DNA of 64,000 nucleotides, taken from the NCBI RefSeq assembly GCF_022605165.1, contig NC_063072.1:2666001-2730000 (forward strand). The letters run 5' to 3'. Of this stretch, positions 61,837-64,000 are shown piece by piece. Under the pieces are notes generated by a model. That model made no database searches, was not told where the DNA came from, and saw nothing but the letters and a program-made list of their open reading frames with translations. The stretch comes from Purpureocillium takamizusanense. Its lineage: Eukaryota > Ascomycota > Sordariomycetes > Hypocreales > Ophiocordycipitaceae. The first letter of the stretch is position 1; the number at the start of each line of letters is the position of its first letter. The position numbers and the translations under genes are program-made.

Positions 61837-63678
61837 TCACGCAAGGCCTCCAGAACCGCGAAAGGGCGCGCCGAGGAACCGATGGCGCACGCACAGGGCG
61901 TCTATGCCGCGGCCGTCGACGTCCCTGCCACAGCCGTCGACAACGCAGCGCCGGTGTCGGGCGCACACGGAAACGGAGCCGCATGCCGCTGCGCCGCGGC
62001 CGCGGTGCACCCTGCGCTGGCACCCGTCGCGCTCACACTCATGCCCGCGGCAGTACAGCGACGTCTCGCCGCGCACGGGCCCGTCGCAATTGCGGTCCCG
62101 GCACCGGTGCTGCGTGCAGTAGTCGCAGTCACGCTCGGCACGCCGGCTGCAAATGCGGTCCGGTATGGGCCCGCTTCCGGTCCGGAAATGGCAGGCCCGG
62201 GCCGGGGACCCGCTCCGCTCCGCCGCCCCTGTGTGGGTCCCCGGAGATCGGAGATCAGTCAGCTGGAGTCCTGCTTCATTCACCGCACCGCCGCTGCACG
62301 GAGTTTCCCGCAGCAGTTGTTGCAACTCTGCAGAGTAGCTCACCTCGCACACGGGATCTTGGCCGCCATCTACCATGGCCATCTTCGTCGTCATCGTCGT
62401 CGTCCAAGTCGTACTCATCGTCATCGTAGTCTAGGTCATCAAGCTCCTCGTCGTCGTCGTGGTCGTCGATGGTGTCTTCGAACCGAACGCCGGGTGATCG
62501 TGACCACGATGAGCGCCGCCGCCGCCGCCGCCGCCGCCTGTTCCAATGCGCGTCACACCAGCCGCTGTTGACGGCGCGCTCTCCGCAGTCCATGTGTGCG
62601 CAACCATGCTCGAGGCAAAAGCGCCCGCTGGCGAGCTTCCTGTGCGAGCAGACGCGGCACTTGTGCTCGAAGCAAAAGTTGGCCACTCCTGCAACTATTG
62701 GTCCCAGGCACTCACGTACCTCGCACTCGTGGATATTGCAGTACTGATGCCCCGACAGCGCGCGGTGCTCGCACGCGTCGAAGTCACATGCCCAGCCGCT
62801 GCCGACGCCGCCGCCGACACCGTTGCCGCTGAACAGGCCTTCGTGACGCACGCAGTAGAGGCTCGCGCCGCTAATGACGCCCTCGCGGCAGCCCTCGGAT
62901 CGGCATGTGTGGTTTCGGCAGTAGTCGCTCCGTCCGCGCGCCTCGGTGCAGTTGTGCAAGTGGCACCGGTGCTCGTCGCAGCGCCTCATGTCTCGGCCGC
63001 CGAACCATCGGCGCTGGCTGCGGCACCCGTCCTCGACACAGTTGTCTGTCATACGCCACCTTGGGTCAGACAACATGTATACTGAATGAGCATGGTAGAG
63101 GAGGAAGAGACCACCGACGATATGGCCAGCAGAAACGATAGTCGCCGACCCGGCCCTCCCTCACTTCTTGCATGCACCTGGCCCCTTCGGCTGACCCCTG
63201 ACATCTGATGTCTGTAGTCCCCTCTCGCCAACCCCCGCGCCTCGCCGTCAGCCCCTTCTTCTTTTCATCTTTCTCTCTGTCTTCTCTCTTTACCGTCCCC
63301 CGGTACTGTTTGCCTGACTGCCCATGCCGCATGCTCGCATGCGGAACAGACAAGCCCATGGGCAGGGACAGGCAGCAGGACAGGGAGCCGGAAAAACAAG
63401 CGGACAGGGGGGGGGCGTTCGCCGCGGCGGCGGCGGCGGCGACGGCAAGGCAACAAAAACTCACGCTCTTCACAGTAACTCGGGTGGTTGACACGAGGCA
63501 GGTCACACACCCTCCCCGTCTCGTCAAAGTACAGGCACGTGTGCGGCCCGCAGTACAGGGACAGCTGGTACTTACCCGAGCCGTGGGGCCCCCTGACGGC
63601 GCAGTTGCCGTGCGGGCAGCGGTCGCTGGGATGACTGCAGCGCGCGCGGTTCCGCTTGAGACTCGTCAGGTGAATCAT
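61837..63678 (-). CDS. Cys/His-rich array protein with at least 13 C-x2-H units
   Basis: I do not recognise a named family. The model has exons 63678-63465, 63045-62344 and 62228-61837 (435 aa). Intron 1 (419 nt, GTGAGT...GACAG) creates the motif YCEEHNC; intron 2 (115 nt, GTGAGC, branch GCTGAC, CACACAG) joins RSRVRG to an Ala/Ser/Pro linker. The protein is a chain of ~20-35-residue units with consensus C-x3/4-C-x(8-19)-[YFW]-C-x2-H-x-C. In most units the last Cys opens the next one. C-x2-H motifs start at residues 43, 69, 94, 114, 136, 174, 196, 215 and 235, then four more near the C-terminus. The two blocks are split by nine Arg (a GGC/CGG repeat) and a very acidic ~40-residue Asp/Glu stretch. 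Metal binding (probably zinc) is inferred from the regular Cys/His spacing. There is no signal peptide or membrane span. The start is uncertain: an upstream intron (acceptor CCATCCTAG just before 63678) is possible. Confidence 0.72.
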
Positions 63679-64000
63679 TCCTAGGATGGAAAAAAGGATC
63701 GACTTTGCCGTCCGGTGGAGTGCTTGACTTGATAGCCGAGGTGTACGTCGGTGGGGAAGAGAGAGGTGCCTCTGGAGGGCCTGCTAAAGTCTTTGATATA
63801 AGATGTGATTCTCCTGTGCTCTGCGATCTGGCTGCTGCTGCCACTGGTGTTTCCTAGTCTAGGAACTGAGCGCCCCAGAAAAGGACTCGAACAAAGTCAA
63901 AGGAAGGACGGAGCGGGGGGCAGCAGCACTAGGTATTTATACCAGAGCCCTTGCCGCCTTTTCGGTGACCATCAGTATACAAACCAGTGCTGGTGGCGCG
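63679..64000. other. Promoter-side edge region of the Cys/His array gene
   Basis: 322 bp to the window edge. It holds a minus-strand TATA-like element (63934-63941) and a minus-strand ATG at 63844 opening an 83-codon-plus frame without cysteines. That frame could be a leader exon, but I found no donor with the right phase. Confidence 0.5.
63934..63941 (-). promoter_or_regulatory. TATA-like element for the Cys/His array gene
   Basis: The minus strand reads TATAAATA within a short palindrome (GGTATTTATACC). It lies ~260 bp upstream of the chosen start and ~95 bp upstream of the alternative ATG at 63844. This is motif evidence only. Confidence 0.4.

Follow-up and report, generated by a model that had tools for sequence, protein, structure and literature searches.

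Gene structure

A three-exon gene on the minus strand (63678-61837) encodes a protein of 435 aa in the window analysed here, a stretch of 64,000 nucleotides of contig NC_063072.1 from the insect-pathogenic fungus Purpureocillium takamizusanense. The genome searched comprises 35.57 Mb in 14 contigs; the published P. takamizusanense assembly is described as 14 scaffolds and 35.6 Mb (PMC9302088). The features of the locus, in window coordinates, are:

63934..63941, minus strand: possible TATA box of the array gene, TATAAATA, 263 bases upstream of the ATG, proposed from sequence only
63465..63678, minus strand: exon 1, residues 1-71 and one base of codon 72; unit 1 and most of unit 2
63465..63575, minus strand: part of exon 1 treated as intron by the public model JDV02_006397; carries putative zinc ligands that are conserved in the related ORF P0003
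63046..63464, minus strand: intron 1, 419 nt, GTGAGT...GACAG; splicing completes His72 of unit 2
62344..63045, minus strand: exon 2, the end of unit 2, units 3-9, the nine-Arg run and the acidic hinge; identical in P0001, the public protein
62513..62539, minus strand: nine-Arg run, residues 241-249
62375..62482, minus strand: Asp/Glu-rich hinge, residues about 260-295
62229..62343, minus strand: intron 2, 115 nt, phase 1, GTGAGC...CACAG; the junction is the same in the public model
61837..62228, minus strand: exon 3, units 10-13, C-terminus and stop

The splice between the first two exons restores the sequence YCEEHNC (YCEE-H-NC, with His72 completed at the junction), as claimed in a preliminary description of this DNA. 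The joining of exons to restore the repeat is also supported by P0003, a 217 aa ORF on an 11 kb contig that aligns with exon 1. The further claim that both introns are supported holds for intron 2 and for the acceptor of intron 1, which match the public model exactly, but not for the donor of intron 1, which is placed differently there. Chance, a pseudogene and a wrong-strand artefact were each considered as the source of the repeat, and are ruled out by shuffled sequences, by ligand conservation and by the public model. The array gene is a real chromosomal fungal gene.

The exon 1 donor

JDV02_006397 (P0001), annotated as a hypothetical protein of P. takamizusanense, is the same gene without part of exon 1. 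It is 398 aa long, has exons 2 and 3 as in the 435 aa model, and ends exon 1 at 63576 by way of an earlier GTAAGT donor; splicing and translating the window sequence with this donor yields P0001 without a single difference. At the public junction Gly35-Glu71 is missing and Asp replaces His72, with the loss of two unit 1 ligands and the whole of unit 2.

Comparison with P0003 bears directly on the choice of donor. Across exon 1, 49 of 68 aligned residues are identical, as are all seven ligands, and within the stretch skipped by the public model (residues 35-71) 29 of 37 residues are identical. Local alignment to P0003 scores 271 over the coding part, 57 past the donor of the 435 aa model and 21 before the ATG. 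Exon 1 of the 435 aa model is favored by this identity, by the retention of the ligands, and by the fall in similarity beyond its donor. From these alignments, the public model appears to leave out part of the protein, and its calling of 63465-63575 as intron probably reflects either a mistake in annotation or an alternative splice form.

The public genome annotation drew on RNA-seq and on P. lilacinum proteins (PMC9302088). This use of RNA-seq, together with the GTAAGT donor and the exact reproduction of P0001, speaks for a reading in which splicing uses the public exon 1 donor, alone or alongside the later one. The normal protein would then have 398 aa and 11 intact units (3-13), and the 435 aa form would be minor or absent, a situation compatible with any of the functional readings discussed below. 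Given the conservation of the skipped stretch and its ligands in P0003, the drop in similarity after the later donor, and the damage that the public junction does to units 1 and 2, we regard this reading as unlikely. The 435 aa model is used in the following.

Thirteen-unit Cys/His array

All 13 units contain three Cys and one His in the order Cys-loop1-Cys-loop2-Cys-x2-His, with no ligand missing. This four-ligand (CCCH) make-up is an addition to the preliminary description, whose count of 13 C-x2-H units, nine on the N-terminal side of the hinge and four on the other, is confirmed in the 435 aa protein. The prevailing form of the unit is C-x4-C-x(9-18)-[YFW]-C-x2-H, and most units follow one another through one-residue linkers. 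Loop 1 is four residues long in 10 units, and measures two residues in unit 8, nine in unit 2 and 13 in unit 10, while loop 2 ranges from 9 to 18 residues. Unit 1 reads C-x4-C-x16-C-x2-H, unit 2 C-x9-C-x10-C-x2-H, and unit 10, with its long first loop, C318-x13-C332-x10-C343-x2-H346. An aromatic or other large hydrophobic residue had been reported ahead of C-x2-H in most units, and this residue, immediately before the third Cys, is indeed aromatic in 10 of 13 (Tyr in seven, Phe in two, Trp in one); units 3, 12, and 13 carry Arg, Val, and Leu, respectively. Similarly, the x-C described as following C-x2-H and starting the next unit corresponds to a single-residue linker in nine of the 12 gaps between a His and the next Cys, the remaining linkers comprising 2, 18, and 79 residues, the last of these being the hinge.

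The regularity of the array lies well outside that of shuffled sequences. The 435 aa protein holds 14 C-x2-H motifs, 13 of them unit ends and one overlapping, against a mean of 2.7 and a maximum of 9 in 5000 composition shuffles. C-x2-H-x(1-2)-C couplings occur 10 times (mean 0.48, maximum 4 in 20000 shuffles), and a regular expression recovers 11 non-overlapping units (mean 1.3, maximum 6 in 20000 shuffles of the same composition). The 52 putative ligands account for 39 of the 42 Cys and 13 of the 28 His.

So high a content of Cys and His in 435 residues could also suit a metallothionein-like buffer that stores zinc or copper. The metallothionein pattern consists of C-x-C clusters, whereas the Cys residues here are spaced regularly, in CCCH sets that include long loops and aromatic residues; the Arg9/acidic hinge, moreover, would have no role in a buffer. 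A storage protein of this kind is therefore very improbable. Judged by the ligand pattern, each unit is instead highly likely to bind one Zn2+ via its three Cys and one His.

A profile was built from all 13 units, and a separate unit alignment from 12, without unit 10. Units left out of the profile in turn score between 3.5 and 17.7 bits. For units 1, 3, 7, 8, 9, 12, and 13, these scores are matched by 46-74 of 200 shuffles that keep Cys and His in place, and for the other six by 1-13 of 200. As seven of the 13 are so readily reached by shuffles, resemblance among the units is loose once the ligands and the aromatic residue are set aside.

Relatives and ligand conservation

Among the matches listed, protein searches found P0001, P0002, and P0003 as relatives; as these searches required shared exact words and some scored a capped set of candidates, they do not show wider fungal relatives to be absent, and similar Cys/His arrays probably occur in other filamentous fungi. 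No relative was seen among the viral contigs searched, and the fungus's own genome gave no second copy at E 10 among the best candidates scored.

P0002 (ACCO45_004989), a hypothetical protein of 321 aa from P. lilacinum, is the probable counterpart in the sister species. It starts inside unit 3 and departs from the 435 aa protein over residues 196-219 (from late in unit 7 through unit 8), both of which are probably faults of annotation; the departure looks like the product of a misplaced intron or reading frame. When these residues and the hinge are excluded, all 36 ligands are identical between the two proteins, whereas the other residues agree at 119 of 210 positions (Fisher p 2e-8). Excluding the hinge alone gives 36 of 39 ligands and 119 of 214 others, and excluding nothing gives 36 of 39 and 160 of 279 (p 7e-6). 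The count of 36/36 follows a redefinition of unit 10 with the conserved C318, a choice made post hoc with the data already seen; the first count, 36/37, had used C340, which is Arg in P0002. The tandem putative zinc sites proposed at the outset are upheld by CCCH sets in 13/13 units and by this selective conservation of the ligands.

Hinge, predicted structure, and genomic neighborhood

The hinge comprises 79 residues, among them 18 Arg, 20 Asp and 6 Glu (26 acidic residues in all), and has a net charge of -8, and the blocks on either side are both net basic (+3 and +9). P. lilacinum P0002 shares seven of the nine Arg at aligned positions and has a shorter acidic run at the same place. The hinge is probably flexible, and with this composition it could be self-neutralising.

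AlphaFold2 prediction of units 3-9 gave a pLDDT of 28.5 with an alignment of three sequences. For units 6-7, with three other unit pairs serving as the alignment (four rows), the value was 54.9; both are too low for the models to be of use. The term solenoid, which had been proposed for the array, is unproven.

The downstream ORFs scanned encode WD40, bromodomain, DEAD helicase, and peptidase-inhibitor I9 matches, and those upstream a glycoside hydrolase 72 and a Myb-like match just below cut-off. The latter belongs to a long Gln-rich ORF on the minus strand (L014:1564-4152; 21.2 bits, cut-off 24.4), which we take to resemble fungal telomere-repeat or TBF1-type Myb proteins. A mobile element or special cluster was rejected, as the six neighboring ORFs chosen look like ordinary genes.

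Searches against known families

No Pfam model reached its cut-off on the 435 aa protein, P0001, P0002, the exon frames, the two blocks without the hinge, or single units, of which 12 of 13 were scanned, unit 8 (19 residues with its linker) being too short. NCBIfam models likewise gave nothing on P0001 or P0002. Neither a PDB sequence search nor the unit profile run against PDB returned a relative of solved structure. The matches obtained from Pfam, NCBIfam, and PDB sequences were all sub-threshold: FYDLN_acid, the coronavirus helicase zinc-binding domain, Rieske, GcrA, WRC, EbpS, haemagglutinin chains, and Elongator protein 3. The usual spacing patterns of NF-X1, C2H2, CCHC, MYND, and TTP-type CCCH fingers have no match in the 435 aa protein, and no title among those listed in literature searches names the array protein.

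Proposed function

The failure of any nucleic-acid-binding family to reach its cut-off is one of two observations consistent with a zinc-held scaffold for protein-protein contacts that does not bind nucleic acid; the other is that loop 2 varies in length and sequence around fixed ligands. In such a scaffold the 9-18-residue loops would face partner proteins and the hinge would part two docking blocks. The basic blocks and the Arg run suit nucleic acid at least equally well, and a purely protein-binding role appears rather doubtful.

The alternative that we prefer is a nuclear zinc-knuckle array or scaffold whose targets would be nucleic acid or chromatin partners. It is suggested by the basic character of both blocks, by the position of Arg9 after the first block, and by analogy with the closest known kinds, Zf_WRKY19-type knuckles and the WRC/HRT finger, WRC being described as DNA-interacting and as holding a nuclear localization signal; we would put its chances at about even. 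Against it stand the net acidic charge of the hinge as a whole, the missed Pfam cut-offs, the loose likeness of the units, and the lack of the Gly-rich run of WRKY19-type units. The protein would consist of 13 tandem CCCH knuckles, nine and four, on either side of the Arg9/acidic hinge. The Arg run could act as a nuclear-localization or phosphate-contact segment, and the acidic stretch might compete with nucleic acid for the basic surface of the array. It is tempting to extend this nuclear array to a more elaborate form, in which up to 13 CCCH knuckles, for the most part connected by single residues, make a continuous zinc-pinned rod and an acidic nucleic-acid mimic gates two blocks that act separately, the whole defining an uncharacterised fungal family; we consider this extension improbable.

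An unannotated "hypothetical protein" becomes a defined array of 13 four-ligand sites, and the public gene model receives a correction that can be put to the test.

Comparison with known zinc-finger types

The preliminary description had found no named domain to match the array. This is only partly right: no Pfam cut-off is reached, but the ligand layout is that of Zf_WRKY19, unit 2 has the exact WRC/HRT spacing, and unit 6 matches WRC weakly, below cut-off. The plant, WRC, and C2H2 yardstick sequences used in the comparisons below are illustrative examples rather than database entries, and their scores serve as leads, the missed Pfam cut-offs being the formal result.

Zf_WRKY19 (PF24906, 24 positions) is built on the same tandem unit as the array, C-x4-C-xn-aromatic-C-x2-H. 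Of its layout, C-x4-C is found in 10 of 13 array units and C-x2-H in all 13. The model itself (cut-off 27 bits) finds nothing at E<=10 on the 435 aa protein, P0001, P0002, or the 12 of 13 single units scanned, and in the genome at E 10 it picks out six weak places, none of them at the array locus. The example of a plant WRKY19-type tandem, with two C-x4-C-x10-C-x2-H units and one C-x7-C-x10-C-x2-H unit, matches the Zf_WRKY19 model over three stretches with 58 bits. The 13-unit profile scores one such WRKY19-type unit at 17.2 bits, a value reached by none of 500 Cys/His-keeping shuffles (mean 3.6), and the three-unit tandem at 32.8 bits in full (0/500) and 13.0 bits for its best unit (1/500); a C2H2 consensus scores -2.1. 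The array profile recognizes the plant tandem, then, beyond the positions of Cys and His. There are also differences. WRKY19-type units have a Gly-rich run (HGG) after the ligand His, whereas in the array Gly follows His in one of 13 units (unit 8) and Gly-Gly in none, and an HG pattern allowing a second loop of 7-9 residues has no match in the 435 aa protein. The second loop of the array is also more variable in length than that of Zf_WRKY19.

The likeness to WRC/HRT (PF08879) is confined to fewer units. The spacing C-x9-C-x10-C-x2-H is exact in unit 2, and the other 12 of 13 units differ. This spacing is given as that of WRC and the barley repressor HRT, an atypical C3H zinc finger, and WRC is described as DNA-interacting and as holding a nuclear localization signal and a C3H motif in common with the transcriptional repressor HRT (PMC7380329). 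The stretch of unit 6 that runs from the second Cys to the His matches WRC with 14.9 bits (E 0.022), short of the 28.6-bit cut-off; unit 2 taken singly has no WRC match, and on the full 435 aa protein no match reaches that cut-off. A genome search with WRC at E 10 gives three weak places, none at the array locus. Against the unit profile, the WRC example reaches 11.7 bits over its best stretch (8/500 shuffles) and 8.8 in full (33/500). The QLQ domain, the partner of WRC in GRF proteins, is absent from the Pfam matches of the 435 aa protein at E<=10.

A third family, zf-C3Hc3H (PF13891, "Potential DNA-binding domain"), has by its name C3H units, as the array does. It is weakly matched by the same plant WRKY19-type tandem (E 0.35), and at E 10 its model (cut-off 27 bits) finds nothing on the array protein, nor on P0001 or P0002. 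The genome holds a single zf-C3Hc3H place, away from the array (L006:1501-1653; 23.3 bits, E 0.0027, below 27), possibly within what we presume to be a KANSL2/INO80D-like gene.

From these comparisons of sequence, the array seems to resemble a known but poorly understood type of zinc finger, and the protein is best described as a putative divergent array of the CCCH knuckle kind, without assignment to Zf_WRKY19 or WRC. It provides a naturally occurring case of contiguous CCCH knuckles; a rigid array would make it an unusual zinc-pinned scaffold, and a non-rigid one a divergent relative of known knuckles.
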